Notes: a model not told the origin generated them from the sequence alone. A DNA stretch of 64,000 nucleotides from Halococcus sediminicola (GCF_000755245.1 NZ_BBMP01000023.1:62001-126000); one strand, 5' to 3'. Positions 31,325 to 58,822 are shown, counted from the first letter of the stretch. Translations and numbers: made by a program.

Positions 31325-32206
31325 TCATGATGATGCCATATCAGAGACAACCTCGTCGGCAAGCGAAGACACGTAACCCGAGTGATTGCTGCCCACCTGT
31401 GAGGTGGCATCGTAATCCGAGTAATTGCCGGGAGTGGTGTTACCGCTCTCCGCTCCAGTTTCTCCAAGCGCCTGATCGAACTCGATTGTATTATACACCC
31501 ATGCGAGCACGTCGTCCTCCTGGCTGTAGTAGTTGAACGTCAACTCGGTTTCGTAAAGGAGTGCCTCGTACGTATCGCGCCATTCGGTTGTCGGTGCTTC
31601 GTTGTCCTGTGCCGCACCGAGTAAGTGGACCGATGCAAGCTTGTACCCGTTGGCATCCCACGTCGAGTCGGCATTGAGCGTTCGGAGCGCGCTGAACACG
31701 ACCTGTGCACCGAGAGAGTGACTGATGAATCGAAGCGTACCGGAACAGTTTCGTGCATAATCCAGGACAAAGTTCGCCAACTTCGGACCGTTCGATTGAG
31801 CGACTGCTTGTGCTTCGCCCCAGCCGAAGTCCACTCCACCGCCCTTGTCTGAATCCCACGTATAACCGACCAAAGTTCCGGTATATCCTGCCTCGCCCAA
31901 TGCGGTGTCTGCTTCGTGGAATTTGGCCAGCGCTTCTGCTTCGGGATCATCGCCGTTTTTGTTCCAGCCGTGGACGAAGACGGTGAGATCATCAGCGCAC
32001 GCCGTATCGATTCCCGGAACGTTGCCATTCGTGTCATAGCCCGTCGCTGTCCGCCCGGCTGCGAGGTCACCTCCATCTGTGAAGTGTTCGCGTGTCGAGA
32101 CCAACGGGACGGTTCGACTGGCCGTGACGGTATTCGCCGTCGCGCCGACCGTGGCTATTCCGAATGCTGTACTCCCTGCTCGCGTGATGAACTGTCGTCG
32201 TTTCAT
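31325..32206 (-). CDS. Tat-exported alpha/beta hydrolase (lipase-like)
   Basis: A 293-aa protein. MKRRQFITRAGSTAFGIATV is a Tat signal (KRRQF). After it come LTVFVHGWNKNGDD (oxyanion HGW) and the nucleophile elbow ISHSLGAQVVF (GxSxG variant SHSLG) near residue 165, with NHSGY near the C-terminus as the likely catalytic His region. It could cleave lipids or esters outside the cell. It lies 198 bases downstream of the amidase gene on the same strand and may share its transcript or regulation. Confidence 0.75.
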   Translation of the reverse strand: MKRRQFITRAGSTAFGIATVGATANTVTASRTVPLVSTREHFTDGGDLAAGRTATGYDTNGNVPGIDTACADDLTVFVHGWNKNGDDPEAEALAKFHEADTALGEAGYTGTLVGYTWDSDKGGGVDFGWGEAQAVAQSNGPKLANFVLDYARNCSGTLRFISHSLGAQVVFSALRTLNADSTWDANGYKLASVHLLGAAQDNEAPTTEWRDTYEALLYETELTFNYYSQEDDVLAWVYNTIEFDQALGETGAESGNTTPGNYSDYDATSQVGSNHSGYVSSLADEVVSDMASS

Positions 32207-32272
32207 GATTATTATAGTGTGAGTCGCGTGTTTCGGTAACCTGTGATTCGATGATTCGGTAGCTCTCTGGTG

Positions 32273-32374
32273 TTAATCTACCAGCACCTTCCGCGTGCTC
32301 GGGCCAACGATACCGTCGATATTGATACCGAGTCGTCCATGCGCCACCCCAGTTTGTATCGCCTTCATTCCCAT
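32273..32374 (-). pseudogene. Remnant of a peptidoglycan-binding (PG_binding_1) domain
   Basis: A 33-residue minus-strand frame, GINIDGIVGPSTRKVLVD at its end, matches the second half of PG_binding_1 domains (VDGxxGPxTxxAV). It is in the same frame as the amidase just upstream but separated from its stop by 30 bases and a second stop. It may be the cut-off wall-binding tail of that enzyme or of a lost gene. Confidence 0.45.
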
Positions 32375-32404
32375 GACTCACCGTGATTTTGTCCAATTGA
32401 GTGT

Positions 32405-33268
32405 TTACAGCAGGCTCATGAAGTACCCCCAATCCCAGCCCGCGCCAGGGTCGCCGTGGTGATTTGCTCCACCACCGAGGCTCGGATTATTGGGATCTGG
32501 CACCTGCTCGTGGCCGATCACTCCACCGCCGACGGTCGCGTCGGCAGGCGCGACGCCGCTCGGGTGCTTTTTCGGAATGTCGTATGCCTCGCAGACCCAC
32601 CCAACGATGTCGGCAGCGTTCTGATAGAGCGAATCGGGATGGCCTTCCGCGGCGAAGCCATCGTGCTCGAAGTTCAGCCCTGTCGTGTTGTAGTCGTAGT
32701 TGCCAGCCGTGTAGGCGATGTCCGAGTCATCGACCATCTGAGTGATCTGCCCGGCGTCGTTGCCAACGACATAGTGGGCGCTCACTCCCGAGTCCGGATT
32801 GTTGAACACGTTGATACCTGTCTGATAGGACCCCTCGATGGTGTGGATAATCGCCCACCGGATGTCGCCCGCAGAGCGGTTCGCCGTGCCGTAGTTGCCC
32901 GCAGCGGCTTGGTCGTATCGCACCGATGGCTTGCCGCCACCGCCGCCACCCGGGCTGGTGGAATCGAGATAGCGTTCGACCGACCAGCCCCAGATGTCGG
33001 CATTGAGCCAGTGGATACCCCACCATGTGTAGCCGTCTTTGGTCTCGGGACCGTTCATCACCTCTCCAACTGTGCCCGACGGCATCGTATCGAGCACGCG
33101 TGAGGCGGTGCCGGGTCGGTGCCGTGTGTTCAGATCGGTCGTCGACTCAACTCGATCACCATCGCTGAACGCGCTGGCCGTCCCGCTGAGGACGATAGGT
33201 GTAGTGAGGGCGGTTGCGGCGGTGCCGATACCTTTGGCGAACGTCCGCCGACTGAGTTTTCGTGTCAT
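32405..33268 (-). CDS. Tat-exported N-acetylmuramoyl-L-alanine amidase with SH3 domain
   Basis: A 287-aa secreted enzyme. Tat signal SRRTFAKGIGTAATALTTPI (RR at 7-8), an SH3-like domain at about 34-102 (FSDGDRVES to GWSVERYL), a Gly linker, then an Amidase_2 domain at about 118-285. Zinc ligands expected at H142 (IIHTIEG), H270/H271 and D273 (NHHGDPGAGWDW); the GHEQV motif at 252-256 precedes them. The family cuts the bond between N-acetylmuramic acid and L-alanine in bacterial peptidoglycan. Haloarchaea have no murein, so the target must be foreign. Third gene of a run with the M23 and glucosaminidase genes, 15 bases after the former. Confidence 0.88.
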   Translation of the reverse strand: MTRKLSRRTFAKGIGTAATALTTPIVLSGTASAFSDGDRVESTTDLNTRHRPGTASRVLDTMPSGTVGEVMNGPETKDGYTWWGIHWLNADIWGWSVERYLDSTSPGGGGGGKPSVRYDQAAAGNYGTANRSAGDIRWAIIHTIEGSYQTGINVFNNPDSGVSAHYVVGNDAGQITQMVDDSDIAYTAGNYDYNTTGLNFEHDGFAAEGHPDSLYQNAADIVGWVCEAYDIPKKHPSGVAPADATVGGGVIGHEQVPDPNNPSLGGGANHHGDPGAGWDWGYFMSLL

Positions 33269-33283
33269 GGACGTGTTCTCTGT

Positions 33284-34036
33284 TCAGATGTCAACGTAGT
33301 CTTTCGGGATTGCGTCATTTGCAGTGATGTTCTGTCCGTCGCTACCGGGGATTGACTGATGAGTTTGATTTCGCTCAATAGTGAAATGGAGGTGCGGGCC
33401 AGTCGAGTTGCCGGTGTTACCCATACCAGCTATCTGTTGTCCCCTCGACACGCTTTCACCCTGTGAGACATCAAAGCTGTTCAGGTGGCAATACATCGTC
33501 TGATAACCGTTCTTATGACCGAGTTTGAGATAGTTCCCACAACCCCCGGCTTGGTAACTCCGAATGTCAACGACACCATCGCGGGCCGCGTAAATCGGTT
33601 CGCCGATATTACCGTTGGCCCCAATGTCCACTGCGTAGTGGCCGGAGCGGTCGCCGTACGGCGACGTGATGTAGCCGGTAATCGGCCACGTGAAGTCCGC
33701 TCCGCCACTTCCACCGCCGCCATCAGCGGACGTGAGATAGCGTTCGACAGACCAGCCCCAGATGTCGGCGTCGAGCCAATGGATGCCCCACCACGTGTAG
33801 CCGTCCTCGGTTTCGGGGCCGTTCATGACTTCGCCGACCGTTCCGGGAGCCATTGTCTGTAGGATGCGTGATTCAGTACCCGGCCGGTGGCGTGTGTTGA
33901 GGTCCGTCGTCGGTTCGACTCGGTCGCCGTTACTGAACGCGCTGGCCGTCCCGCTGAGGACGGCGGGTGTGGCGAGGGCGGTTGCAGCGGTGCCGATACC
34001 TTTGGCGAACGTCCGTCGTGAGATCTTTCGCGTCAT
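33284..34036 (-). CDS. Tat-exported M23 peptidoglycan endopeptidase with SH3 domain
   Basis: A 250-aa secreted lysostaphin-type metallopeptidase. Its first 102 residues are nearly identical to those of the amidase: Tat signal SRRTFAKGIG and SH3-like FSNGDRVEP to GWSVERYL. The M23 domain (about 115-225) carries all zinc and catalytic motifs: H133 and D137 in GHYAVDIG, H184 in MYCHL, H215/H217 in GPHLHF. M23 enzymes cut peptide cross-bridges, often next to Gly or D-Ala. The near-identical front half shows recent duplication with exchange of the catalytic module. Confidence 0.9.
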   Translation of the reverse strand: MTRKISRRTFAKGIGTAATALATPAVLSGTASAFSNGDRVEPTTDLNTRHRPGTESRILQTMAPGTVGEVMNGPETEDGYTWWGIHWLDADIWGWSVERYLTSADGGGGSGGADFTWPITGYITSPYGDRSGHYAVDIGANGNIGEPIYAARDGVVDIRSYQAGGCGNYLKLGHKNGYQTMYCHLNSFDVSQGESVSRGQQIAGMGNTGNSTGPHLHFTIERNQTHQSIPGSDGQNITANDAIPKDYVDI

Positions 34037-34075
34037 TGGTTGATTTTGAGTTGAGGATCGATTTTCGATTTTGAG

Positions 34076-34885
34076 TTATGCGCGGACGAGGTAGCGTTCG
34101 ACCGACCAGCCCCATACGTCGTCGCTCCAGTGAACACCCCACCATGTGTAGCCGTCCTCGGAGACGGGACCGTTCATGATCTCGCCGGTAGTGCCCGTGG
34201 GTTGGGTGTCAAGCACACGTGATTCGGTACCTGGTCGGTGGCGCGTGTTCAGATCGACGGTGGATTTGATCTGCTCGCCATCACTGAATCCGCCACCGCC
34301 ACCACCGCCACCGCCGCCACCCCCGCCACCATCGGGAAGCTCGGCATCGAGATCATTCATGATGCTGGCGATTTTCTCGGCCCAACGGTCGTCGGTAGCG
34401 TAGTGGACGTTCATCGCACGCAGCGACGTCCCCTCGTACCAGTCGCCACCCGATGTGAGATATTCCGTATCGACGTACGCCATTACCTCGCGCACGCACT
34501 GAGCAAACGACGCGTAACCGTCGGCGCACTCCGAGGGACAGATGTCGCGCGCATCGAACCCGTAGATGTTGTTTTTCTCTTGGGCGATGTTGCTACGCCC
34601 CCACGCGGATTCGAGCGCTGCGTGGGCAGCCATGTAGACGGCGTTGATTTGCCGTTCGCTTTGCACGACCGCCCATGTATCTCCGAGGCCGACGAGCGGA
34701 CTGCCTGGCGAGACGGCATCGACGGCCGCATCGAGTTCCCTACCCGTGACATCGGCGGTTTGTCTGAGGTCGCTATCGATGGTGTACGACCGCGCAGCGG
34801 CCGTCCCAGTCATCGATAACCCTCCGAGGGCGACGACCCCGGCTGTACCTGCACCTTTCAAGAACCATCGTCGTGAGCGGTTCAT
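34076..34885 (-). CDS. Tat-exported glucosaminidase (GH73/FlgJ-like) with SH3 domain
   Basis: A 269-aa secreted glycan hydrolase. Tat signal NRSRRWFLKGAGTAGVVALG; a glucosaminidase domain at about 65-180 with catalytic Glu92 in AAHAALESAWGRSNIAQEKN and the NNIYGFDA motif; a pure glycine linker of 14 residues near 186-199; and a C-terminal SH3-like domain (FSDGEQIKS to GWSVERYL) like those of the next two proteins. The family cuts the sugar backbone of peptidoglycan. It is the first gene of the lytic run; a TATA-like GATTAAAAAAG lies about 30 bases upstream. Confidence 0.87.
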   Translation of the reverse strand: MNRSRRWFLKGAGTAGVVALGGLSMTGTAAARSYTIDSDLRQTADVTGRELDAAVDAVSPGSPLVGLGDTWAVVQSERQINAVYMAAHAALESAWGRSNIAQEKNNIYGFDARDICPSECADGYASFAQCVREVMAYVDTEYLTSGGDWYEGTSLRAMNVHYATDDRWAEKIASIMNDLDAELPDGGGGGGGGGGGGGGFSDGEQIKSTVDLNTRHRPGTESRVLDTQPTGTTGEIMNGPVSEDGYTWWGVHWSDDVWGWSVERYLVRA

Positions 34886-34936
34886 ACCTCTTCTCTCGGT
34901 ATCGGGAACAAACTTTTTTAATCTTATGGCCGCAAT

Positions 34937-35233
34937 TTATATGACCACTAATAACTGGGTATATCGGCAAACAAACGGATTCTTTCCCCCAAAGATGGTT
35001 GACTGAGTGCGGAGTAGGTAGACGAAACAGACGATGAGGACAATTGGGACGAGCATTTAGAGCCATCCGAGGGTTCCACTCGTCCAGCCGCCCAATCCCA
35101 TACGAGTCCACTAATTGTTCGTCCCCGAATGTGCGCTGGCGAGTCCACTTCCGATCCCGACTCCGAGTGTCCCGGCCAGAAGTCCCGTTGTTTCAGTTTG
35201 TAGCGTTTTCGCGCTCGTTTTGATTGCATTCAT
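34937..35233 (-). pseudogene. Small membrane-protein gene with two in-frame stops
   Basis: MNAIKTSAKTLQTETTGLLA starts at 35233 and continues after TAG and TAA codons in the same frame as WTRMGLGGWTSGTLGWL and MLVPIVLIVCFVYLLRTQST. The second half resembles short Gly/Trp-rich one-helix membrane proteins of haloarchaea. The first 40 residues alone could still be made. Confidence 0.4.
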
Positions 35234-35246
35234 CTGATGATTGTAC

Positions 35247-35369
35247 CACTGTATCGTTTGCTCTCGGGAATTCACCGAGAATGTAGCGCAGTTTCGGATA
35301 GCGCTCAACAAGCGGCTGGCCGTCAACGAAGACGAAGAACTGTCCGCTGACTCAATAAGAGGGCACCAA
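35247..35369 (+). pseudogene. Fragment of an unidentified gene
   Basis: The plus-strand frame REFTENVAQFRIALNKRLAV followed by NEDEELSADSIRGHQ and a stop looks coding but has no start; it is the 3' tail of a lost gene of unknown kind. Confidence 0.25.
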
Positions 35370-35418
35370 TAGAGCACTCTACTGTCAAGCATCTCGTCGG
35401 CTTGGCGATCAGACCAGA

Positions 35419-36264
35419 TTAGCCGTACTGAGCGTCGGTTCCGGCTCCACCCGCTCGTAGCATGGCGATCGAGCGTTCGTAGACATCGGGATAGTTGTCG
35501 CCCTCAACACGCGTTGTGCGGCTGTCGGTTCTCGTGACGTCTGGAGTGCCGGCTGCACGGGCTGCCTGATTCGTTGTTGCCCAGTCGGCTTCGATTCGGA
35601 TCGGCGTATCAACCATCGGCACGGCTACATCACCATCGGCAGCAGTGGAAACTGCGCGCTCGGCGTGGTCACGGATTGCTGCTTGTGTCTCCGAAACGGG
35701 CCGGCAGTACGCTGTGAAGCGGTCGATACCGCGTTTCACTGCCACTGTTTCGATCTCATCGCCCAATTCGGTACGTGCTTCGGTAGCAGTCACGTCATCG
35801 CCGGTCACCAACACCACGGGAACGTCAAGTGCACCAGCTAGTCTCGCGTTCCACCCGAGTTCGCCGACTTCGTGGTCGTTCACGCGAAGTCGAACCAGTT
35901 TCCAGCCGAAAAACGTGTGATTGAGCACGCCAGAGGATGTCCCTGCCTTAGCGTGGTAGCCAACGAACAGCGCGCCGTCATATTCGTCGGAGAGCCCCTG
36001 CATCATCGACCGAGGCTTTGTGTTTCCGCGGATCAGCTGTGCTCGCTCGTCTATCTCGACACGATCGAGGTTTCGCATGGAGGAATGAGAATCGTTTACA
36101 AGAATTTCAGTTGCACCGGCTGCGACCGCACCCTCGATCGCCGCGTTCACATCGCTATGAAACAACTCCTTCCCACGTCGATATTCTGCGGTACCCATCG
36201 TGACGTCTTCGGAAGTCGCAATCCCGGAGATACCTTCCATATCGGCTGAGATGAATATGCGCAT
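35419..36264 (-). CDS. dppA: D-aminopeptidase DppA (M55 metallopeptidase)
   Basis: A 281-aa M55 enzyme. MRIFISADMEGISG gives D8 and E10, VNDSHSSM gives H60, VGYHAKAG gives H104 and LNHTFFG gives H116. The first four fall at the numbers remembered as metal ligands in Bacillus subtilis DppA, and H116 matches its catalytic His region. The family releases N-terminal D-amino acids, preferably D-Ala, from short peptides in the cytoplasm; no signal peptide is seen here. In B. subtilis dppA heads the dpp operon next to murein-peptide genes. Here it is divergent from the lysA unit, 345 bases away. Confidence 0.88.
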   Translation of the reverse strand: MRIFISADMEGISGIATSEDVTMGTAEYRRGKELFHSDVNAAIEGAVAAGATEILVNDSHSSMRNLDRVEIDERAQLIRGNTKPRSMMQGLSDEYDGALFVGYHAKAGTSSGVLNHTFFGWKLVRLRVNDHEVGELGWNARLAGALDVPVVLVTGDDVTATEARTELGDEIETVAVKRGIDRFTAYCRPVSETQAAIRDHAERAVSTAADGDVAVPMVDTPIRIEADWATTNQAARAAGTPDVTRTDSRTTRVEGDNYPDVYERSIAMLRAGGAGTDAQYG

Positions 36265-36441
36265 GCATTCGGTGCCGTTCGCTATAGCTTTAATTTTCCG
36301 ATTATAATACCGGTTTGAATATGTGTGTTGACAGACATCCGAATATAGTTGCCATATAGGTCATTTTTGAAGTAAGACTGATTCCCCACTCTTATTTATA
36401 TTTACTTTGCTTGCATTCAACGCAACAGAGACAGAAGTGAT

Positions 36442-36612
36442 ATGAGCGCTTCGCCCAGCAGTCGAGTCATGCCGAAATACGCACAGAGCGGGGCGGGAGG
36501 ACAGCGAATCAACGGATGGGAGCACAATGTAGCCAAACGACTGATCGGCGCTCTCTGCATCGAATTCAATGTCTGTGGCCTTCTCCACTGGGAAGAGAGG
36601 CCGTGCGGATGA
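36442..36612 (+). CDS. Possible 56-aa leader ORF upstream of lysA
   Basis: The frame MSASPSSRVMPKYAQSGAGG ends with a stop that overlaps the lysA ATG (ATGA). A TATA-like TTATTTATATTTAC at about 36389-36403 would start transcription just before it. Coupling is the main evidence; the sequence itself is not recognised. Confidence 0.35.
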   Translation: MSASPSSRVMPKYAQSGAGGQRINGWEHNVAKRLIGALCIEFNVCGLLHWEERPCG

Positions 36613-37829
36613 GCGGAGGCGACGTGCGCAGACTTGCAGACTGGGATAGGGCACACTTGCGCTCACTGGCTGCTAAATACGGGACGCCCTTGTACGTAAT
36701 TGATCTGGAACGCGTGCGCTCGAACGCGCAGCGCGTGTGCAGGGCTTTTCCTGACGCACATATCCAGTACGCTGTAAAGGCTCATACCGGGCATACGGTA
36801 CTTAAGACCGTCCGTGAGGCTGGTCTCGATGCCGAGTGTGCGTCGGCTGGTGAAGTCGCTCGCGCGTTCGACGCAGGCTACGGGGCAAACGACATACAGT
36901 ACACTGCGGTCAACCCACCCGACAAGGACTTGGACTATATCGTGGATTGCTGGCGTGAGAATAACGCTCTTACTGTCACCGTTGGTGCACGTGATACGCT
37001 GTTACGCCTCTCTGAACGAGGATACGATGGTCGCCTCTGCATACGCGTTAATCCTGGCGTTGGCGCGGGTCACCACGAGATGGTTCAAACGGGTAAGGAC
37101 GCCAAGTTTGGCGTACCCTACAATCGTGCGGCTGATGTCGTCGCCGAAGCTCGTGATTATTTCGACGTGATCGGTCTCCATGCCCATGCCGGGTCGGGCA
37201 TCGATGTCGACCAACTTGAGAACCACCGTGAACTCGTACAACGGATGGGGACACTCGCCCGTGAGGTAGGTGACTTGGAATTTGTGGACGTTGGCGGTGG
37301 TTTCGGTGTCCCCTATCGGAAGGACGAACCACCGTTTGACTTGCGTGTTGTCGCTGACGCGACGCGGGAGGCAATAGGTGAGATAAGTGCTCAACTCGCT
37401 ATCGAACCTGGCCGCTATATTGTCGCCGACGCAGGCGTCCTGCTGACGACAGTCAATACGATTAAACCTGCTCCAAAGACGACCATTGTCGGCGTTGACG
37501 CTGGCATGACGACACTACTTCGTCCAGCACTCTACGACGCTTTCCACCCAATGGCTATCCTCGCTGATCGAGGTGATAGCCCCATTACCGTCACCGGTCC
37601 AATCTGTGAATCATCCGATGTTTTCTGCACCGACCGTCCACTTGGTACACCCAAACGAGATGACGTTATCGCCATCGGCAACGCCGGGGCATATGGCTAC
37701 GAAATGGCGAGTACGTACAACTCCCGCCCTCGTCCCGCTGAGATAGCGCTCGCGAACGGGACAAACCGTATCGTCCGTCAGCGCGAGACGCTCGCTGACC
37801 TCACGCGTTTGGAGAAGGACGAACCATAA
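36609..37829 (+). CDS. lysA: Diaminopimelate decarboxylase
   Basis: A 406-aa fold-III PLP enzyme that converts meso-diaminopimelate to L-lysine and CO2. K57 in QYAVKAHTG binds PLP; HAHAGSGID, VDVGGGFGVPY, IEPGRYIVADAG, GPICESSDVF (substrate Cys) and GAYGYEMASTYNSRPRP follow in family order. The start at 36609 (MSGGDVRRLADWD) is chosen over an in-frame ATG at 36516 that adds no conserved sequence. No other lysine or DAP biosynthesis gene is nearby. Between dppA and a peptide-binding protein, the enzyme fits turning imported diaminopimelate from bacterial walls into lysine. Related PLP decarboxylases cannot be fully excluded. Confidence 0.85.
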   Translation: MSGGDVRRLADWDRAHLRSLAAKYGTPLYVIDLERVRSNAQRVCRAFPDAHIQYAVKAHTGHTVLKTVREAGLDAECASAGEVARAFDAGYGANDIQYTAVNPPDKDLDYIVDCWRENNALTVTVGARDTLLRLSERGYDGRLCIRVNPGVGAGHHEMVQTGKDAKFGVPYNRAADVVAEARDYFDVIGLHAHAGSGIDVDQLENHRELVQRMGTLAREVGDLEFVDVGGGFGVPYRKDEPPFDLRVVADATREAIGEISAQLAIEPGRYIVADAGVLLTTVNTIKPAPKTTIVGVDAGMTTLLRPALYDAFHPMAILADRGDSPITVTGPICESSDVFCTDRPLGTPKRDDVIAIGNAGAYGYEMASTYNSRPRPAEIALANGTNRIVRQRETLADLTRLEKDEP

Positions 37830-38034
37830 GCTTCGGCGACGGGATAATCGCGGTCGAGAAATACCACGCCACGGAGAACGATTCCTCGTCGGAGATACGA
37901 AAGTAGCGGCGGTTCCCGACTACGCGGTGTTCGCCAGCGCTCACTGCGACCGGAAAACGGACCTCGATCCCGATCTCGATGGAAAACGCCACGGCGCGGA
38001 TGGCGTTCTCTTTCTTGCTATCGAAGAGGACCAT
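37801..38034 (-). CDS. Hypothetical protein between lysA and peptide-binding gene
   Basis: A 77-aa frame (MVLFDSKKENAIRAVAFSIE) overlapping the end of lysA by 29 bases on the opposite strand. Strand-like segments (GIEVRFPVAVSAGEHRVVGN) suggest a small beta domain. It lies 29 bases downstream of the peptide-binding gene and may be co-transcribed. No family is recognised. Confidence 0.35.
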   Translation of the reverse strand: MVLFDSKKENAIRAVAFSIEIGIEVRFPVAVSAGEHRVVGNRRYFRISDEESFSVAWYFSTAIIPSPKLMVRPSPNA

Positions 38035-38063
38035 GACTCGACGCGAGTGAAGATGGAACTCGT

Positions 38064-39923
38064 TCAGCCGCGCTGCTTGGCGATCTTCACATCATTCAAT
38101 TGCTGACGATTGCTCGCCATTCCACCAAATGCTGGAATGTCGACCCAGTTGTATCTGAACCTCTCGCCGAGGCTGTTATAGACCGGGAGAAGACTGACAT
38201 CTTCCCAGTTTGCTTCCTCTATCTCGGTGTATGCCTTATTACGGGCGCGTTCAGCTTTTTTCGTCGGGTCTTGGTTGTTCAAAACTCGTTGGTAGGCCTG
38301 CTTCGCCTGCTCAGCCGCGTCGCCATTTTTCGATGTCCAATTGGCTCCCGTGAGCGATTCCGGTTTCGAGGTGTCGGTCTGGGGAGGATTGAGGAGCTGG
38401 AGGAAGTTGTCAGGTGCCGGCCAATCGGCAATCCAGTTGAGCGTGTAAATTTCGACCTTTCCATTATGTACGCGTTCAAGTAACGTCGAAAACGGAGCCT
38501 GTTGGATCTCCATCTTGATATACGCGCTCGACAGTTGGTCGCGCAACAGTTTGCTGAGCTCGAGCCATGTGTCGTCCTGATACTGCGTCCACGTTATGGT
38601 GTACTGGTTGTCCGGCCCATATCCCGCCTTTTTCATGACGTTTCTCGCCTTATCAAGTTGGGTTTTCGCGTATCCGTAGGGGTAGTTCTGCTTTGCGTGT
38701 TTCTCGTAGGCTTTCGCGCCGCCGGGATAGATCGACGGCGGCGTGAAAAGATAGGCCGGTGAGCCACGACCTTTGAACACCTCCTTGATTATCTGATCCT
38801 GGTTCACTGCGTAGGCGAATGCCTGTCGGACGGGCTTCGGCACTCGTGCCATGTTGAAGCCAAGATAGTAGGTGATAATTAACGGAACTGAGGAGTATTG
38901 GACCGTTTCACCGTTTTTGAGCGGTCCATAGGTCCCGAACTCTCGTCCAAGGTCATCCGGGCCACGTTTGATGTTGATTTTACTTTTGTCGTACTGTGAG
39001 GTCGGAATATCGAAGCTATCGGCGTTTTTCGCTATCGCGTACTGATACGCCGACGAGCTTTTGTCGATTATTTGCCAATGAACGCCTGCGATAGATGCCT
39101 TGCCACCGTAATAGTCGTCAAATCGCGTGATTTCGATCTCAGTTCCAGGTTGATAGTTATTCAGTGTGAATGGCCCTGTCCCGATCGGGTTGCTACTCGA
39201 AAATTTCTCGTACGACATCTCGCCGTCGTACCCCTTGATGTCACCGAGAATGTCCTCCGGGATGACTGCAAAGGTGTTGTACGCGAGCACCTCCATCGCC
39301 GCGTGAAACGGTTCAGAGAGTGTGATTTCGAGGGTTTTCTCATCCACGGCTTTGAGCGCCAAGGAATCGGGTTTGTAGGTCTCCTCGCCGTCCTGAGTGG
39401 TCGTTTCGTGTTTGACGCCGAGCGAATCGAGTATGAAATAGGCTCGATTGGAATTCTTCGAGGCTGCGAGACGCTCCCACGAGTAGATGAAGTCCTGTGC
39501 GGTGACGTCCTTTCCGTTGTGGAATTTCGCGTCCTTCAGTTTGAAAGTATAGGTCGTATTGTCTTCGGCCAGCTTGAAGTTCTTTGCGAGGCCTTTTTCG
39601 GGAGTTGCCTTCCCGTTCGGATAGCTCATCAGCATATCGTACAACTGGTGGTTAACGTATCCACTCACGGCGTCAGTCGCTGCGACTGGATCAAACGTTG
39701 TCACGCTGCTGCTGGTCAGTTGCAGTGTCTTCGAAGAATCAGCCTCAATATTTTGTTTCGTTCCCTGACCGCCGCTGCTACTGTTATTGGCGTTTTCTTT
39801 CTTTTTCGTGGCGTTGTTGCCACCATCATTGCTCCCGGAACAGCCGGCAAGAGCGACTGCCGTCGCTACTCCGCCGGTAGCTTTCAGGAAGGAACGCCGG
39901 GTCCGTTTGTCACTGTCTTTCAT
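38064..39923 (-). CDS. Peptide-binding lipoprotein of ABC transporter (DppE/OppA family)
   Basis: A 619-aa family-5 solute-binding protein. The start at 39923 gives a Tat/lipobox signal, RRSFLKATGG then VALAGCSGS, so it is exported folded and lipid-anchored. After a Gly/Ser/Asn linker come standard blocks: GLAKNFKLAEDNTTYTFKLK, DAKFHNGKDVTAQDFIYSWE, YPYGYAKTQLDKARNVMKKA and LNWIADWPAPDNFLQLLNPP. The family binds di- or oligopeptides, including murein tripeptide in some bacteria. No permease or ATPase genes lie within the window, so it must use partners elsewhere. It is divergent from the NlpC/P60 gene. Confidence 0.85.
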   Translation of the reverse strand: MKDSDKRTRRSFLKATGGVATAVALAGCSGSNDGGNNATKKKENANNSSSGGQGTKQNIEADSSKTLQLTSSSVTTFDPVAATDAVSGYVNHQLYDMLMSYPNGKATPEKGLAKNFKLAEDNTTYTFKLKDAKFHNGKDVTAQDFIYSWERLAASKNSNRAYFILDSLGVKHETTTQDGEETYKPDSLALKAVDEKTLEITLSEPFHAAMEVLAYNTFAVIPEDILGDIKGYDGEMSYEKFSSSNPIGTGPFTLNNYQPGTEIEITRFDDYYGGKASIAGVHWQIIDKSSSAYQYAIAKNADSFDIPTSQYDKSKINIKRGPDDLGREFGTYGPLKNGETVQYSSVPLIITYYLGFNMARVPKPVRQAFAYAVNQDQIIKEVFKGRGSPAYLFTPPSIYPGGAKAYEKHAKQNYPYGYAKTQLDKARNVMKKAGYGPDNQYTITWTQYQDDTWLELSKLLRDQLSSAYIKMEIQQAPFSTLLERVHNGKVEIYTLNWIADWPAPDNFLQLLNPPQTDTSKPESLTGANWTSKNGDAAEQAKQAYQRVLNNQDPTKKAERARNKAYTEIEEANWEDVSLLPVYNSLGERFRYNWVDIPAFGGMASNRQQLNDVKIAKQRG

Positions 39924-40089
39924 CCGTATCATCTGCTGAAACCGAATGTATATAATATTTTTGTAGCTATTTATATGGAACAAGCGAGTTTTTCTGAATA
40001 TGATCGCCTGAGCGAGTTCATGCAAGCATTGGCTTCGAACGCTGTCCGCAACACCGCTCAAGAAAGCGAGACCGATAAGCGATAGACCT

Positions 40090-41142
40090 TTGATAGGTGC
40101 GTGCACACCGTCGTGGGTGAATCAGACCGCTCACTCCCTGTCCCTTGCAGTTCGTCGCGTTCGGACGCGATACGCGCCCGACGACAGGGTAACCGTATTC
40201 GACGTGGATGTCGACCACTCGACAACCGTTCCGACCATTCGTGGCGTCGTCTCCGAACCGTACCTTCGAGAGCGAGTGCTCGCGGCCGCACGCGATGTCC
40301 GTGACGAGTTCGACACCGCGGTTCGCGTTCTTGACGCCTCTCCACGAACAGTAGCCGTTTCCGTCGCCTCGGTCCGTGGCGAGCCGTCGACGGACGCTGA
40401 ACAAGTGACACAGGTGCTACGGGGTGCCGCAATAACTGCCTACGAACCGGACGATCAGGAAAGTCAGGGTCATGAAGGATGGACCCAAGTGCGCGTTCCC
40501 GACGGTTACATAGGGTGGATCGAATCAACTCAGCTCACCGATGTCGCTGATATCAGCCCGGAGCATGTCATCTGTCGCCGGGTCGACGCCGGATCGACTA
40601 CGCTCCACGCTGGTACAGACATCGCCGTCGAGACGGTTGAGAACGGCCGGACAACCGGTCGCCTCCGAACTGGAGAGGCCGTCACGGTCCCGGCCGACGC
40701 CGTCACGCGGCCGAAACCGCCCGGCGGTGACGAGTTCGTTGAGATAGCCAAACAGTTTCTCGGTACCGAATACGAGTGGGGCGGAATAACGACCGAGGGG
40801 ATCGATTGCTCCGGTCTCGTATGGATTCCGTATTACGTGGCTGGCGTTTCCCTCCCGCGAGATGCGGACCAGCAGCGAGCGATGGGACCGACCATCGCTC
40901 GCGATAACCTCAAACCCGGCGACCTGCTCTTCTTTCCAGGTCATGTTGCGATCAGTCTCGGCGGCGACGAGTACATCCACGCCTACGGCGATGATGATGC
41001 AGTCGTCATCAGCAGTCTCGACCCAGATGCCGAGAACTATCTCGAGTTGCACGACGACACGTTCGAGATGGCGATTCGTATTCTCCCTCGTGCTGGAGAC
41101 GAAGGGATGAGCACGGGCGAGGGCGAAGAAAATGATCTCTGA
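40090..41142 (+). CDS. NlpC/P60 (C40) peptidase with SH3 domains, YkfC-like
   Basis: A 350-aa protein without signal peptide. SH3-like segments cover about 28-200 (VTQVLRGAAITAYEPD, GWTQVRVPDGYIGWIESTQL). The C40 domain at about 213-335 has C240 in GIDCSGLVW, H285 in FPGHVAI and H297 in EYIHAYG. This layout matches Bacillus YkfC, a cytoplasmic gamma-D-Glu-diaminopimelate endopeptidase of murein-peptide recycling. The start is uncertain; GTG codons just inside are possible. The serine-hydrolase gene begins three bases after its stop, so the two form an operon. Confidence 0.82.
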   Translation: MIGACTPSWVNQTAHSLSLAVRRVRTRYAPDDRVTVFDVDVDHSTTVPTIRGVVSEPYLRERVLAAARDVRDEFDTAVRVLDASPRTVAVSVASVRGEPSTDAEQVTQVLRGAAITAYEPDDQESQGHEGWTQVRVPDGYIGWIESTQLTDVADISPEHVICRRVDAGSTTLHAGTDIAVETVENGRTTGRLRTGEAVTVPADAVTRPKPPGGDEFVEIAKQFLGTEYEWGGITTEGIDCSGLVWIPYYVAGVSLPRDADQQRAMGPTIARDNLKPGDLLFFPGHVAISLGGDEYIHAYGDDDAVVISSLDPDAENYLELHDDTFEMAIRILPRAGDEGMSTGEGEENDL

Positions 41143-41145
41143 TAC

Positions 41146-42009
41146 ATGCGTCCCGCGACACCACCGAAGACCCGAGTCGAATTCCGCGATCGAGTCGACG
41201 CCTTCGGCGATCGCCTCGATGCACGCTTTGGGGCTTTCTTCGGGTTTCCCACGACCCCAGGAACCTTCGACGTCGTCCACACGGTGCGGCCCAACGAGCG
41301 CTTCACCAGCGCGAGTCTGATTAAACTCTTCGTCCAGTACGCGCTCTATGACCGCTACGATGGCCGACTCGATGCCCTCACCGAACCATACGGTCTTGCG
41401 GCCGAAAATCGGGTCGCTGGCACCGGATTGTTTCACCTCCTTGACGATCCGGATCCGACATTAGAGGATCTCGCCATGGCGATGATAGGTATCAGCGACA
41501 ACGCGGCGACGAACGAACTCATCGACCATCTTGGCCGAGAGAAAATAAACACCGTCCTCAACGAGTTGGGCTACGCCGACACCCGCCTCGGACGGAAGAT
41601 GATGGTGACTGGCGGTGGGACCAAAGACCTGCCGCCGGGCATCTCTGAGAATGTCACCTCACCGCGCGATGTTGCCAGCTTGGTAGCTGATACGGTCCAC
41701 GAGACAACACTCTCGTCAGTTGCGTACGACCGTCTTCGGGTTCCGCTTCGCCACCAGCACGACACCTCGATGGTTGCTCGCTATCTCCCGTTGGGCGTAG
41801 ACATCGAACACAAGACGGGAGAGCTGACAGACGCCGTTCTCGACGCCGGAACCCTCCGCATCGAAGATTGCGACCCCCTCGTCTTCGCCGTGTTTCTTGA
41901 CGAACTTGATTCTCCCGGGGAGGGGACGGACGTCCTCGCATCGGTTGGTGCGCTCGTATACGATTGGCTCGAAACGCACAGAGAAAGTGACGGACTGGCG
42001 GTAGGGTGA
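41146..42009 (+). CDS. Class-A-beta-lactamase-fold serine hydrolase
   Basis: A 287-aa penicillin-binding-protein-like enzyme: S57-x-x-K60 in TSASLIKLF, SDN at 117-119 in GISDNAATN, KTG at 223-225 in EHKTGEL. The family includes class A beta-lactamases and D,D-peptidases. There is no signal peptide, so periplasm-type beta-lactam defence is unlikely. With the C40 peptidase 3 bases upstream, a role in trimming D-Ala-containing or other murein peptides in the cytoplasm is plausible, though unproven. Confidence 0.8.
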   Translation: MRPATPPKTRVEFRDRVDAFGDRLDARFGAFFGFPTTPGTFDVVHTVRPNERFTSASLIKLFVQYALYDRYDGRLDALTEPYGLAAENRVAGTGLFHLLDDPDPTLEDLAMAMIGISDNAATNELIDHLGREKINTVLNELGYADTRLGRKMMVTGGGTKDLPPGISENVTSPRDVASLVADTVHETTLSSVAYDRLRVPLRHQHDTSMVARYLPLGVDIEHKTGELTDAVLDAGTLRIEDCDPLVFAVFLDELDSPGEGTDVLASVGALVYDWLETHRESDGLAVG

Positions 42010-42145
42010 CGTCAACCCCAATCCTATCTGGAGTCGAAGTCCTAGTTCAACGAAATGATCTACCGGCCGTTGTTTGAGACGTCCTCAACACGGAATTCGA
42101 GACAGTCTCTGACCGTGGCGTCGGTCGTACTCGATCGGATGCCCG

Positions 42146-43411
42146 CTATCGCTGTTTCGTCCCAGTTGGATGTGCCGGGTGCGTGTGTTCGGGTAGATAG
42201 ATGATATAGACGATTCCGCCGCTTCCCGTAGTGCGTTGCCAGACATTCTCGAACGCCGCGCGCGAATAGATACATCGCACATCCTCGTTGGTCGGTGCAA
42301 ACGGGTCGTTGGCGACCACATCCCCGTCTTCAGTGAAACCGACGATTACCATCAAATGCCCATCTGTCCCATACCCCGCACTAGGCAATTCATCCGCCTC
42401 GAACGACACCGAAGTGATGACGGGAATACCGGCCTTGATGTATTGTTCCAATTCGGTCAGAGAGCGGAGTCGGGTCACGAAGCCATCGAGACCAAACCGT
42501 CCGGCATATGCGACGTTGAACGGCCAGTTGCCGGCACCATCGTAGCTGTAATCGTAGGTTCCGCGCACGGCGAAGTCGACTTGCGGGTCTTTGTAGTCTG
42601 GGTTGACCCAGCTCATCTGTTCGTCAGTAGGACCGCGCCCCCAGTACGAGAGGATCATCGCGGTGGAGGTAGGGCTGCACCACGCCTCGCCACCACCGTC
42701 CCACTTCGGATACTCTCCCTTGTGAATCTCCTGTGAGTACTTCGGTACGTCCAGTACGATGCCTTCTGCTCCGCCGAGCGGACTGGCGTCGACGTGCTTT
42801 TGTTCCGATAGGTGGGAGGCCATGACGCTGGCCGAGTGTACCACTGGCGAGTGCTCACTATTGGGCAGTCGATAAAGCGTCACACGCAGCTGATACGAAC
42901 GCAGTGTAACTCCATCGACTGCTTTGAAGGTATCCACAGTAACTCGGCCGAACTCATCGTCTTGATCTGGGACGGAAGTGCGATGGATATCCATATCCGT
43001 CATTGCCCAGCGCCCCATGACGTACCAGCCGGTGCGGTCACCGCTGGTGGTCGTCCCTCGTATTTCTATTTCCAGCCATGTATCTGATGGAACATCCGCG
43101 GTCCACGATGCGATCAGTTGTTTTGCTCCGAAACTCACCGAGTGTACTGGTGATGTCCACCGGCTGTACCTCCAAGTTTTCGTGCTATAACCCAACGGAT
43201 CGGTGTACTCGCACTTTCCAATGGAGTGTGCGATAGTGAGCGACCCGGCTCGATTCGTGGGTCGCGTCCCGCTGAATTGGCCCGGAGCGAAGTCTTGCGG
43301 TGAAGTCCATCGTTGGACATCGATGCGCCTCCTTTGTGCAGAAGTTTCACCGTTTCCGGAACTGATACCCGCTAAATTGCTTGTGAGTCTGGCTACATTC
43401 TCCGATTTCAT
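42146..43411 (-). CDS. C39-like cysteine peptidase
   Basis: About 421 aa from ATG 43411 (MKSENVARLTSN); a start at 43474 is possible. The N-terminal half is beta-rich (SVSFGAKQLIASWTADVPSD, TWLEIEIRG). The C-terminal papain-like domain has LDVPKYSQEIHKGEYPKWDG, catalytic Cys in EAWCSPTSTAMILSYWG, and His in GTDGHLMVIVGF followed by VVANDPF. Relatives are found in Actinobacteria and Firmicutes. No signal peptide is clear. Its peptide target is unknown; placement suggests the same bacterial-wall or bacterial-protein theme. It is convergent with the serine-hydrolase gene. Confidence 0.75.
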   Translation of the reverse strand: MKSENVARLTSNLAGISSGNGETSAQRRRIDVQRWTSPQDFAPGQFSGTRPTNRAGSLTIAHSIGKCEYTDPLGYSTKTWRYSRWTSPVHSVSFGAKQLIASWTADVPSDTWLEIEIRGTTTSGDRTGWYVMGRWAMTDMDIHRTSVPDQDDEFGRVTVDTFKAVDGVTLRSYQLRVTLYRLPNSEHSPVVHSASVMASHLSEQKHVDASPLGGAEGIVLDVPKYSQEIHKGEYPKWDGGGEAWCSPTSTAMILSYWGRGPTDEQMSWVNPDYKDPQVDFAVRGTYDYSYDGAGNWPFNVAYAGRFGLDGFVTRLRSLTELEQYIKAGIPVITSVSFEADELPSAGYGTDGHLMVIVGFTEDGDVVANDPFAPTNEDVRCIYSRAAFENVWQRTTGSGGIVYIIYLPEHTHPAHPTGTKQR

Positions 43412-43663
43412 AGTAGTTGGTCGAGAAATCACTCGGTTTTTATCACTGTTGTGACAATCACTACCTTGCGTCATTGATATGCCGATGCATTTCTACGACT
43501 AATAGGTTGCGCTGAATCAAAAGCGGATATCAACGGTAGATATCGAATTTGGCGGGTGTGGGCGGAAACATCGTTCGGGAATGAGTACATGCACAAGTAA
43601 GCGATGCGAATGATGAACCTGGCTATCTTCCGATGGAGCGTTCCAAGCGTTACAGTAGTCTTA
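43412..43663. other. Upstream region of C39-like gene
   Basis: No gene is recognised. It holds the promoter side of the C39-like gene and AT-rich DNA up to the amidase remnant. Confidence 0.35.
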
Positions 43664-45246: not shown

Positions 45247-47463
45247 TTACCCGCCGTCACCGTAGGATTCTTCGGCAACCGTGGTGCCCGAACTGTCTTG
45301 TATCGAGATCGTGTCGCCATCGTTGTTCAGCACCGAACGCCCGAATCCAGCGTAGACATCACCGTCTGAATCGCTCCCCTCGCCCGTGTGAACGGTGAGC
45401 GTCTCGCCGGCCTCGAGCGTGATACCCTGGATCCCGTATGTCTGATCGTCGTCGAAGACGATCGTATATCCCGAGAGGTCGATCGTCGAGCCAGTTGGAT
45501 TTTCGAGAGTGACTGTCTCGTCGTCACCTTCGGGCTGGATGTTCGCGATGGTGAGCTCTCCCGAGCTGTCGCCGCCATCCGGGACGGGCGTCGGGGTGGG
45601 AGTGTCCGAGGCCTCGAAGTTCCACAGACCAATGTTCTCCGATTGTGCATCCGATTCGAGATCTGCGAACTCGCCGCTCTTCGAGAACTCACTCTCGTAA
45701 AGTCGTGCATACCCGCCCTCAAGCAGCTGACGGTTGAACAGCTGGCCGTCATCGTGGTAGGCATAGACCAGTAGCCGACCGTAACTCCCGCGCCGGTCGG
45801 CACTCGGATCGGTCTCGATACGAATCTCCTCACCAGTACTCAACTGATCTTTTGCGAACCGGCTCGCCCGGTCGGCCCACTCCGAGAGGTGTGCTTCACC
45901 GGCGTCGTTCTCGGGGATACCCTCGAACTCGTTGGGGCTGACCCCACCGCTCACCTCGGGTGTATCGACACCAAGCAGACGAACGTTCTCGACATCGCCG
46001 TTCGGGAAGCGCACCTCCATCGTGTCGCCATCGACGATCTCCGTGACCGTGACGGTCCATTCACTGCCTTCGTCAGGGCTGCGCGCACCGCTCTCAGCAT
46101 CGCCGGAGCTGCTATCGCCGCTACTCCCTGAGTCACCACCCTCACCTGCACTGCCTCCGCCGCTCGCGCCCGACTGTTCCGGCGTAGGAGTCGGTGTCTC
46201 GGTAGCTGTCGGTGTTGGTGTGGGGGTCGGGGTCGGTGTTTCCGTTGCTGTGGGTGTTAGGGTTGCCGTCGGTGTCGGCGTTGGTGTGCTTGCCGGCGCG
46301 TACGGAACGTTCACCTTCTGCGTCGCGATGCGGTCGTGGAACAACGTGTTTCGGTTCATCAACCGAACGCGTATCCAGACCTGACCCGGCGAGGCCGACG
46401 AGAGCCGCGACTCGTTCATCCGGATGGTGAACGTCCCGTTCGGCGCGCGACGTACATTCGGCGTGTCGAACTTCCAATTCCCACCGACAGCGATCGCGAA
46501 GTATGGATCGCCAGCACTGCCGTCAGCATTGGCCGCCGGGAGCGTCGTGTTTGCACGTACCTGCAGTGCAAACGCTTCGGGGCGTCCGTCGTTATCGCTA
46601 TCGCGCTCGTTGACGACCGAGACGTTCTTGATGAGCGCCTGATCTGGGTAGGGAGATTTCTGTCCTCCACCTCCACCGCTGCTGGCGTTCGACTGCTTCG
46701 CTGTCGTGGTCGGTGTTGCCGTCGATGTGGATATCGGTGTCGCAGTCGGTGTCTCGGCGGGTGCGTACAGAACGGTCGTGGACCAGGCCGCGATACCGTC
46801 GTTGAAGGCTGTGTCGCGGTCAAGCAGCCGAACGGTGACGTTCAACTCCCCGCTTGCCTCGTCAGGGATGACTGAGTCGTTCATCGGGATCGTCGTCGAG
46901 AATTCCTCGTCTCGGGCGACCTCCGAGGTATCGAAGCGCCACTGCCCGTTTGCTTGGACGGCGAAGTACGGCTCACCAGGCTCGCCAGGGCTACCGTCAC
47001 CCTCGGGAACCGACGTGTTCGCGTGTACGAGGACATCGAACGCTTCGTAGCTTCCATCACCGTTCACGTCCGTGGTGTTCACGACCTCAATGCCAGGGGC
47101 TTGTGCTTCGACTGCCGTGGCATTCGTCGCGCTCGTGTTGTTCCCCGCGGGCGCGAATCCCGACCAAACGGCGCTGGCTGCGCCGGTCACCACGAGGAGA
47201 TAGACGAAGGCTGCGAGCACGAGAACGACTCGGCGCTCGTGGGAGAGTCCCGGGAGGCGCGAAAGCGACGATGCGCTCAGACGATCGCGAAGCCCGCGGA
47301 TGTTGAACGCGAGAAGCAGTGGCACGGCAAGCGCGATGAGTAGCATCACCACCGGGAGAAAAAGCAGCGCAACGAGCGCGACGATGACGACACCAACGTT
47401 GCGGGCGGTGCGGCCCGGCCGCATGAGTGGGATGCGGCTTGTAATGGAATCAAAGGTTGGCAT
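45247..47463 (-). CDS. Membrane-anchored nuclease (SNase) with lamin-tail domain
   Basis: A 738-aa protein. Two or three N-terminal TM helices (NVGVVIVALVALLFLPVVML, VVLVLAAFVYLLVVTGAASA), then two related beta domains with CARDB-like features (about 115-235 and 280-395), Thr/Pro linkers (TPTPTPTPTATETPTPTPEQ), a staphylococcal-nuclease domain at about 468-615 (VDGDT, RLLGVDTPE, DRRGSYGRLLVYAY) and a C-terminal lamin-tail domain at about 634-735. The nuclease would face outside and cut DNA or RNA; lamin-tail domains often accompany secreted nucleases. It suits scavenging of nucleic acid at the cell surface. Confidence 0.85.
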   Translation of the reverse strand: MPTFDSITSRIPLMRPGRTARNVGVVIVALVALLFLPVVMLLIALAVPLLLAFNIRGLRDRLSASSLSRLPGLSHERRVVLVLAAFVYLLVVTGAASAVWSGFAPAGNNTSATNATAVEAQAPGIEVVNTTDVNGDGSYEAFDVLVHANTSVPEGDGSPGEPGEPYFAVQANGQWRFDTSEVARDEEFSTTIPMNDSVIPDEASGELNVTVRLLDRDTAFNDGIAAWSTTVLYAPAETPTATPISTSTATPTTTAKQSNASSGGGGGQKSPYPDQALIKNVSVVNERDSDNDGRPEAFALQVRANTTLPAANADGSAGDPYFAIAVGGNWKFDTPNVRRAPNGTFTIRMNESRLSSASPGQVWIRVRLMNRNTLFHDRIATQKVNVPYAPASTPTPTPTATLTPTATETPTPTPTPTPTATETPTPTPEQSGASGGGSAGEGGDSGSSGDSSSGDAESGARSPDEGSEWTVTVTEIVDGDTMEVRFPNGDVENVRLLGVDTPEVSGGVSPNEFEGIPENDAGEAHLSEWADRASRFAKDQLSTGEEIRIETDPSADRRGSYGRLLVYAYHDDGQLFNRQLLEGGYARLYESEFSKSGEFADLESDAQSENIGLWNFEASDTPTPTPVPDGGDSSGELTIANIQPEGDDETVTLENPTGSTIDLSGYTIVFDDDQTYGIQGITLEAGETLTVHTGEGSDSDGDVYAGFGRSVLNNDGDTISIQDSSGTTVAEESYGDGG

Positions 47464-50555: not shown

Positions 50556-52007
50556 ATGATACAAAGCATACGAAATCTTGCGTTTACAACTTTTGTTGGA
50601 AAAATCGTCGGTAGAATTTCGTCCTACGGCATGGTCCTTCTCCTCGCTTGGAGGTTTGGTCCAGTAGCCGTCGGAATATTCTCATTTGGAAAAGTTACGC
50701 TACAGATCGGCAAGACCCTCTCAACAGCAGGGCTCGTGAATATTGCGCAAAAATACGTTTCGATTTATCGAGCAAATGAGGAACAGCAGAAGCTAAATGG
50801 ACTCGTTGTAGCTTGTATCGGCGCAGTAACGGTTCTTGGATTAGCGTTTAGCGGTGTTCTTCTTCTGAACGACGACATTGTTACCGTTCTGTCCGGTAAA
50901 TCGAACAACAGCTTCACCAGAATTTTCGTGATTGGCATACCATTTTTTGCTATTGCAACAATATCAGCGGCGATTACCAGAGGGTTCAAGCGAGCCAAAT
51001 ATTCCGTGTACATCCTCGACATCGGCTTCTTCACAGCTTCCTTTCTCATCACTGGTGCGATCGTTATACTGAATCCATCGTTTGAACTGGTGGTCCTCGG
51101 GTACGTTGGTGCAACTGTTCTCTCCTCACTGCTCGGGATTTACGCACTCACTCGCTTTGACATGATCTCGCTCGATTCCGGCTTCGACTTCGATCTGCGA
51201 TCAATCATCCCCGAGGGTGCCAGAATGTTCGGCATCGGCATCTCACAACAGTCGGTCGTCTGGGCCGATATCGTATTCTTGGCGTATCTGACGTCTGCCG
51301 GAACCGTTGGCCGGTATGAGGTCGCGTATCAAACCGCTGCTCTCCTCGGATTTGCGCTCGTCGCGGTCAACTCAGTGTTTCCGGCGATCGCTGCGGGACT
51401 GTACAATGACAATGAGATCGAACAACTCTCAGCGTACTACAAAGCGATCACGAAATGGATCACGTATCTAACGGTGATCGCCGCCAGTGGATTGGTTCTA
51501 TTCGGGAGGTCCTATGTGGGACTACTCAGCGAAGAATTCGTGAGTATCGTTCCAGTGCTTGCAGTATTGGCCGCCGCCCGTGTGGTTGCTGTCGGTACCG
51601 GTCCTGCTGGGATGTTATTGATGATGGCCGATAAGGAACGCACTGAACTACTGAACTCCGCTGCCGTCGCAATAGCGAACCTGATACTGAACTTCGTGTT
51701 AGTGAATCGGTACGGGATGTTTGGTGCTGCGATAGCAAGCAGTCTCTCATTGAGCGTTGTGAATATTATCCGAGCACTGCAAGTGCGACACTACCTCAGC
51801 ATTGCGCCGTACGACCGGGAAATATTCGATCACGTCTGGGGAGTCGGTGCTGCTATCGGTGGAATTGTCGTTGTGCGGCTCGTTGGTGGGTCATCAATCT
51901 TAGCAGCAATAGTAGCAGCAATAGTAGGCATATCGATATTCGCTTTAACCATCATGAATATCGGCCTTTCAGAAAGAGATACCAGCCTCATAAGTTCCAT
52001 TGACTGA
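50556..52007 (+). CDS. Polysaccharide/oligosaccharide flippase (Wzx-like, AglR-type)
   Basis: A 483-aa protein with 12-14 TM helices of the MOP/Wzx superfamily: SIRNLAFTTFVGKIVGRISS at the start, ILDIGFFTASFLITGAIVIL, GISQQSVVWADIVFLAYLTS (typical of flippases), and GTGPAGMLLMMADKERTELL. It should move a lipid-linked glycan across the membrane for S-layer or surface glycosylation. It heads the glycan island 50.5-64 kb and is AT-richer than later genes. Confidence 0.85.
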   Translation: MIQSIRNLAFTTFVGKIVGRISSYGMVLLLAWRFGPVAVGIFSFGKVTLQIGKTLSTAGLVNIAQKYVSIYRANEEQQKLNGLVVACIGAVTVLGLAFSGVLLLNDDIVTVLSGKSNNSFTRIFVIGIPFFAIATISAAITRGFKRAKYSVYILDIGFFTASFLITGAIVILNPSFELVVLGYVGATVLSSLLGIYALTRFDMISLDSGFDFDLRSIIPEGARMFGIGISQQSVVWADIVFLAYLTSAGTVGRYEVAYQTAALLGFALVAVNSVFPAIAAGLYNDNEIEQLSAYYKAITKWITYLTVIAASGLVLFGRSYVGLLSEEFVSIVPVLAVLAAARVVAVGTGPAGMLLMMADKERTELLNSAAVAIANLILNFVLVNRYGMFGAAIASSLSLSVVNIIRALQVRHYLSIAPYDREIFDHVWGVGAAIGGIVVVRLVGGSSILAAIVAAIVGISIFALTIMNIGLSERDTSLISSID

Positions 52008-52019
52008 TTTGCGATCGCG

Positions 52020-52952: not shown

Positions 52953-53062
52953 GTGTTTAATCCTGTTCTGTCTCGTTTGATTTAGCGATTTGGATTTGCG
53001 GCTATCCAGCGGTTGCGCGGATAACCAAAGTGATTTACTGTTTGTTGCCACATTCTACAGCA

Positions 53063-54049: not shown

Positions 54050-54119
54050 TCACAAATAGTGAAAGTCGTCATATAGGCAGTGTCTAGTCAAAGTATGAAC
54101 ACTTCCTGGGTTGAGGTAA

Positions 54120-54859: not shown

Positions 54860-54882
54860 CTAGACACTGCCGTCATATAAAA

Positions 54883-56355: not shown

Positions 56356-56531
56356 TCGTTAGTGGTTGCGCAAGTGTTTCATAAATATCCATTCATCCGA
56401 GACGACCTATTCGTTTCCCCTATTGGAACCGATCCTGATAGCTGATGTCGTCAAGTAGCGACACCGCTTTGATGAAGCCAACGTCGCGAGGGGTGACCAA
56501 TCGTGGCGGGGTGGCTAGGCCCGTAGCTAGC
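56356..56531 (-). other. Intergenic; possible 42-aa tail fragment
   Basis: A minus-strand frame beginning at a GTG inside the end of the GT4 gene (PRLVTPRDVGFIKAVSLLDD, ISYQDRFQ) looks coding but unrecognised; it may be a remnant of a lost gene's 3' end. Confidence 0.25.
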
Positions 56532-58783: not shown

Positions 58784-58822
58784 ACCACCGTCCGGGGAGT
58801 CGCTGTGCGTCTCGATAGCTAC

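Follow-up and report, generated by a model that had tools for sequence, protein, structure and literature searches.

The 64,000-nucleotide stretch of Halococcus sediminicola DNA analysed here (NZ_BBMP01000023.1:62001-126000, called the window) carries at positions 31325-43474 what is probably a locus for the utilisation of bacterial peptidoglycan (murein). Three hydrolases with signals for export by twin-arginine translocation (Tat) stand there beside genes for DppA, LysA, an oligopeptide-binding lipoprotein, a YkfC-type NlpC/P60 peptidase and a serine hydrolase (Table 1). The first-pass annotation had described a locus for attacking and eating bacterial cell walls, and all the genes that it listed are present, with clear family matches, intact catalytic residues and three Tat signals. 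There is good support for the eating of bacterial murein, as other haloarchaea also keep the intracellular genes together, these genes co-occur with secreted hydrolases, and in some genomes the two groups adjoin.

Intracellular genes and their probable substrate

The check proposed with that annotation, a search for the same gene set in other haloarchaea, found the intracellular genes together in at least nine other genomes. They form a murein-tripeptide module of Dpp transporter, PBP4/S13, YkfC-type NlpC/P60 protein, L-Ala-D/L-Glu epimerase, LysA, serine hydrolase and sometimes DppA. The eating half of the annotation thereby withstood the refutation set for it, namely a lack of joint conservation elsewhere, and the transporter, epimerase and PBP4 were added as steps that had been missing. 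The C39-like and DUF900 proteins are not conserved members, neither being found in the other haloarchaeal clusters examined. It turned out that YkfC and the serine hydrolase lie at most 10 kb apart in all other genomes having both (6 of 6), and YkfC and the epimerase at most 3.5 kb apart in 7 of 9. For example, Natrialba magadii pNMAG01 contains in a row two binding proteins, DppBCDF, dacB, a regulator, lysA, NlpC/P60, dipeptide epimerase, serine hydrolase and D-aminoacylase; the YkfC-type enzyme of this species is NMAG_RS17680. The Halorussus halophilus cluster holds NlpC/P60, DUF1611, dipeptide epimerase, S9 peptidase, dacB, DppFDCB, binding protein and lysA, while that of G073, a congener of the window species, holds LysA, serine hydrolase, DgcN, binding protein, DppBCDF, DppA, YkfC, epimerase and S13. 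Because YkfC is linked to the serine hydrolase and the epimerase across genera, chance adjacency is excluded for the intracellular part; this does not extend to where exactly the hydrolases stand. In the window, three genes of dpp-ykf type, for a DppA-type D-aminopeptidase, an oligopeptide-binding protein and a YkfC-type enzyme, lie together at 35419-41142.

The NlpC/P60 protein of the window is nearest to solved dipeptidyl-peptidase VI/YkfC enzymes (3npf and 3pvq; also 3h41), and its Cys240, His285, His297, Tyr228 and Trp230 are kept in relatives. Besides, the YkfC signature residue Asp258 is found in the window protein and in 14 of 14 haloarchaeal sequences, and Tyr140 (in PDGYIGW) in all 13 sequences covering the region, its equivalence being taken from position and alignment to 3npf and not from a structure of an archaeal protein. 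Judged by these alignments, the defining residues of the murein-specific YkfC subfamily are present in the archaeal NlpC/P60 proteins; no other sequence feature speaks as strongly for the substrate as this conserved pair, whose signature fits a free N-terminal L-Ala.

Gene counts were made in a sample of 146 Halobacteria genomes and depend on the E-value limits. A housekeeping LysA occurs in 144 of these, so that the cluster LysA is an extra one. In the clusters elsewhere it is of a divergent type, and the window holds a housekeeping-type LysA instead. This is the second copy in its genome, the other being on contig C8 (59% identical). It resembles the housekeeping LysA found in other Halobacteria (72%) more than it does this C8 copy, and was likely acquired from another haloarchaeon. 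A narrow role in protection or supply, for instance muropeptide detoxification or lysine top-up, could be read into this second LysA and into the binding protein, which is only of the general Dpp type. We regard it as highly improbable, as the cluster LysA comes on top of a nearly universal enzyme, and dedicated transporters with secreted hydrolases fit supply over clearance.

A second module combines NamZ (exo-N-acetylmuramidase), NagZ and AnmK with a Dpp-type transporter, SDR, GNAT, creatininase, IclR and often GH18 genes. It was found in Halorussus, Haladaptatus and the genomes G124 and G083; Natrononativus has a shortened version. NamZ and AnmK occur in the same 5 of the 146 genomes, all five with YkfC. 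In G083, the peptide and sugar modules are joined in an island of about 26 kb (G083:C4:186821-212570; L161:8821-19954 and L180:1-14570), apparently a complete murein-catabolic one; YkfC, epimerase, S13, LysA and serine hydrolase were seen there along with NagZ, NamZ, AnmK and a transporter.

These islands bear on whether the intracellular genes act on murein or on another D-amino-acid or gamma-glutamyl substrate, such as poly-gamma-glutamate or free D-amino-acid peptides. In Natrialba (L022, L023, L025, L103), DppA stands with threonine synthase, M20 peptidase or CapA-like genes and not with ykf, another use of the enzyme, and epimerase, DgcN and D-aminoacylase are also found alone. Still, a different substrate is very unlikely, since the YkfC signature is that for a free N-terminal L-Ala, and since LysA, a PBP4-type carboxypeptidase and NamZ/NagZ/AnmK, lying in the same islands, are jointly sensible only for murein.

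Secreted hydrolases and their probable link to catabolism

The GH73, M23 and Amidase_2 genes lie head to tail with spacers of 15 and 39 bases, each with its own Tat signal. The GH73 protein has a putative catalytic Glu92 within AALESAWG, as aligned to the solved endo-beta-N-acetylglucosaminidase 7pj3. H133, D137, H184, H215 and H217 of the M23 protein are intact by comparison with M23 structures, and the zinc-ligand positions H142, H253 and D273 of Amidase_2 are identical or conservatively replaced in the alignment of its relatives. Two of these families are also represented among the bacteria-killing peptidoglycan hydrolases that the archaeon Halogranum salarium secretes, by Woldo (M23) and Danwoldo (GH73) (Strock et al. 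2025, PMC12352652). The GH73 protein reaches 248 bits against NF052335 (Danwoldo equivalog) and the M23 protein 200 bits against NF052336 (Woldo equivalog), both under the cut-off of 500; to judge from the sequences, the catalytic parts are related and the binding modules are different.

All three enzymes share an SH3b-like module. Amidase_2 and M23 have 82% DNA identity in it over 324 bases, signal included, and the module of the GH73 protein shows 78-80% over about 200 bases. It looks like one binding module was locally shuffled onto three catalytic domains, a history like that proposed for Woldo (PMC12352652). The module has no Pfam match, while relatives of it in genome G046 match SH3_3 at 1.7e-10. 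Its predicted fold was of low confidence (mean pLDDT, the predicted local distance difference test score, 58) and was not used. Among the features by which Strock et al. define a modular secreted archaeal peptidoglycan hydrolase, the catalytic domains and Tat signals are present, and this module is a candidate for the wall-binding domain. A Tat-secreted pair of transglycosylase and M23 on a Halocatena salina plasmid (L206:13224-14750) has the module type of the window.

Among the 146 genomes, DppA was found in 8 (6 of close type), YkfC in 14, the serine hydrolase in 11, Amidase_2 in 13 and GH73 in 4 (3 over the cut-off). The epimerase list (109 genomes) was split, and the strong group of about 300 bits or more, in 29 genomes, was counted; the remaining matches, at about 140-175 bits, are probably o-succinylbenzoate synthase-like paralogues and were not counted. 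Co-occurrence was assessed hypergeometrically with the window genome left out and kinship ignored. Amidase_2 occurs with YkfC in 6 genomes (1.1 expected, P=1e-4) and with DppA in 4 (0.4 expected, P=1e-4). YkfC occurs with the serine hydrolase in 6 (0.9 expected, P=3e-5), with DppA in 4 (0.45 expected, P=2e-4) and with NamZ in 5 (0.45 expected, P=3e-6). Counted by genus, the window's genus left out, Amidase_2 with YkfC gives P=0.003. Besides, the sugar module of Halorussus vallis, limi and aquaticus encloses a Tat amidase by AnmK/NamZ/NagZ, and on contig 20 of G073 a Tat amidase adjoins AnmK. In YIM A00010, such an amidase is flanked by YkfC and a Tat GH18 gene, in a cluster which further has DppA, epimerase, serine hydrolase and Dpp transporter.

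Several findings weigh against a utilisation locus in the window. None of the other genomes examined has its exact set of three hydrolases beside DppA/YkfC. Most Amidase_2 genes of the sample are distant from catabolic genes, and the Halocatena salina pair has none within 14 kb. Neither transporter subunits nor an L-Ala-D/L-Glu epimerase lies near the locus within the window, both being present in the clusters of G073, N. magadii and H. halophilus; the transporter of the window genome was not located, no genome-wide search for DppBCDF having been made. An epimerase-family gene does exist on contig C1 (G000:C1:58053-59105), beside DUF1611/DgcN and with a D-aminoacylase. It may serve N-acyl-D-Glu, because the same grouping occurs in genomes without YkfC nearby. 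NamZ and AnmK, present in the congener G073, are absent from the window genome (95.5% complete), which would therefore use only the peptide part of murein. Separately, the window contig was seen to code, about 32 kb past the locus, for a PBP4/S13-like protein that is Tat-exported and shares 25% identity with its counterpart in the G073 cluster (G000:C23; L179:11572-13194).

Some of these points suit two unrelated halves, the hydrolases being weapons against competing bacteria and DppA/YkfC/LysA with the binding protein a separate cluster for scavenging murein peptides. The relatives Woldo and Danwoldo are killers (PMC12352652), such hydrolases in Halocatena salina and many amidases of haloarchaea stand without catabolic genes, and the gap between GH73 and DppA is 533 bases. 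We nevertheless think two unrelated halves unlikely, given that a rare amidase co-occurs with a rare YkfC or DppA, also by genus, and that a secreted amidase repeatedly adjoins murein catabolism in other genera. As most Amidase_2 genes are unlinked and the Halocatena salina pair is alone, the functional link of hydrolases to catabolism in a utilisation locus rests on co-occurrence and on repeated, not general, adjacency.

Proposed pathway, neighbouring genes and origin

The substrates, their uptake, the flow of products and their use as a nitrogen, carbon or lysine source are what we infer from sequence. The enzymes exported by Tat (GH73, M23 and Amidase_2) would work extracellularly, where the shared module probably anchors them to the wall, and would cut glycan strands, the sugar-peptide bond and peptide stems or cross-links. 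Short peptides such as L-Ala-gamma-D-Glu-mDAP (mDAP, meso-diaminopimelate) would be released, and the DppE/OppA-type lipoprotein would pass them to an ABC transporter coded outside the window. Once in the cytoplasm, the peptides would be cleaved by the YkfC-type enzyme into L-Ala-gamma-D-Glu and meso-diaminopimelate, the latter being converted to lysine by LysA. Ends containing D-Ala may be handled by DppA, perhaps by the serine hydrolase, and by S13 where present, and D-Glu could enter ordinary metabolism via a dipeptide epimerase or a DgcN/DgcA-type pair coded elsewhere in the genome. An attack on live bacteria is only inferred, by analogy with the bacteria-killing Woldo and Danwoldo (PMC12352652); the walls may come from bacteria killed by the archaeon or from ones already dead. 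That some haloarchaea are bacterivores, which would lyse living bacteria with secreted domain-shuffled hydrolases and feed on murein peptides and, in some species, amino sugars, is a tentative idea that we consider less likely than not.

Table 1. Genes of the locus, with positions in the window
Feature	Position	Strand	Match and remarks
Alpha/beta hydrolase (DUF900), exported	31325..32206	-	PF05990 4e-6; membership doubtful
Amidase_2, Tat-secreted, SH3b-like module N-terminal	32405..33268	-	PF01510 2.5e-20
M23 endopeptidase, Woldo-related, Tat-secreted, SH3b-like module N-terminal	33284..34036	-	PF01551 9.9e-29
GH73 glucosaminidase, Danwoldo-related, Tat-secreted, SH3b-like module C-terminal	34076..34885	-	PF01832 2.1e-17
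DppA, M55 D-aminopeptidase, export signal absent	35419..36264	-	PF04951 2.9e-91; 1hi9 4e-44
LysA, diaminopimelate decarboxylase	36516..37829	+	TIGR01048 354 bits, cut-off 298
DppE/OppA-type Tat lipoprotein, oligopeptide-binding (SBP_bac_5)	38064..about 39923	-	PF00496 1.4e-72
SH3 + NlpC/P60, YkfC-type	40090..41142	+	PF00877 5e-22; 3npf 8e-21; Asp258, Tyr140
PBP-fold serine hydrolase (Beta-lactamase2)	41146..42009	+	PF13354 5e-43
C39_2 peptidase-like protein	42146..43474	-	PF13529 5e-31; membership doubtful

The genes of the locus are not chance open reading frames: most have a curated-family match with an E-value of 1e-17 or lower, and the proteins show the acidity usual in haloarchaea (isoelectric points 4.3-5.7, without the binding lipoprotein). 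DppA aligns over its full length with the B. subtilis D-aminopeptidase DppA (1hi9). The start of the lipoprotein was inferred from a Tat motif and a lipobox in the translation. The serine hydrolase gene starts 3 bases past the YkfC-type gene, and its SxxK, SDN and KTG motifs are invariant among relatives. The protein coded two genes off, at 45247-47463, is large, is membrane-anchored or exported, and combines a staphylococcal-nuclease with a lamin-tail domain; a role in extracellular DNA use is possible. Flippase, glycosyltransferase and sulfatase-like genes at 50556-59851 make up a surface polysaccharide or glycosylation island.

In the tree, haloarchaeal DppA of the window type forms a single clade (SH-aLRT 99) that falls within bacterial sequences, its sister group being uncertain. 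This would fit a single acquisition from bacteria and later spread. Many related clusters sit on plasmids, the searches concerned being plasmid-only, and megablast of the 12-kb locus against plasmids gave no match. With haloarchaeal queries, the stretches examined of bacterial DppA loci (L026-L099) showed Dpp transporters but no matches to YkfC, LysA, epimerase or BLA2, for which the queries are maybe too distant. Contamination was rejected on account of the 201-kb contig, 0.5% contamination of the genome, the acidic proteins and the haloarchaeal nearest relatives.

Comparison with known systems

In the open-access literature (subscription papers not covered), we found no description of haloarchaeal murein catabolism, nor of bacterivory as an archaeal way of life. 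Secreted archaeal wall hydrolases as such are already known (Woldo and Danwoldo), and it is their coupling to a catabolic pathway that is apparently new there. Strock et al. leave open whether the bacteria are rivals or food (PMC12352652); a conserved murein-catabolic cluster, linked statistically and sometimes physically to hydrolases, is an argument from genomics that they are food. Natrialba magadii and Halorussus are among the culturable archaea in which the question becomes testable, and the cluster supplies sequence markers for wall-eating archaea. If true, archaea of hypersaline ecosystems would have bacterial walls as a further source of carbon and nitrogen.

Like Woldo and Danwoldo, the window enzymes are haloarchaeal, Tat-secreted and modular, of the same catalytic families and with domain shuffling. 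They differ in having SH3b-like modules in place of PG_binding_1, a third enzyme (Amidase_2) and adjoining catabolic genes. The dppABCDE-ykfABCD genes of Bacillus subtilis serve murein-peptide utilisation (gene context: PMC2954226). Haloarchaeal clusters likewise join DppA, Dpp transporter, YkfC and L-Ala-D/L-Glu epimerase, but they add LysA, PBP4/S13 and the serine hydrolase, and no LdcA (YkfA) was identified in them. The window shares DppA, the binding protein and the YkfC-type gene with B. subtilis, whereas its cluster is without transporter and epimerase and has secreted hydrolases attached. The bacterial NamZ-NagZ genes for murein-sugar turnover with AnmK have their counterpart in the NamZ, NagZ, AnmK and transporter sets of Halorussus, Haladaptatus, Natrononativus, G083 and G124. 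However, the archaeal sets use a Dpp-type ABC transporter, the Halorussus cluster encloses a Tat amidase and GH18, and the window genome lacks NamZ and AnmK. Finally, the DgcN-DgcA pathway for D-glutamate resembles the pairing of DUF1611/DgcN with an epimerase-family gene on contig C1 of the window genome, whereas in G073 and Halorussus halophilus DgcN belongs to the YkfC/Dpp cluster.

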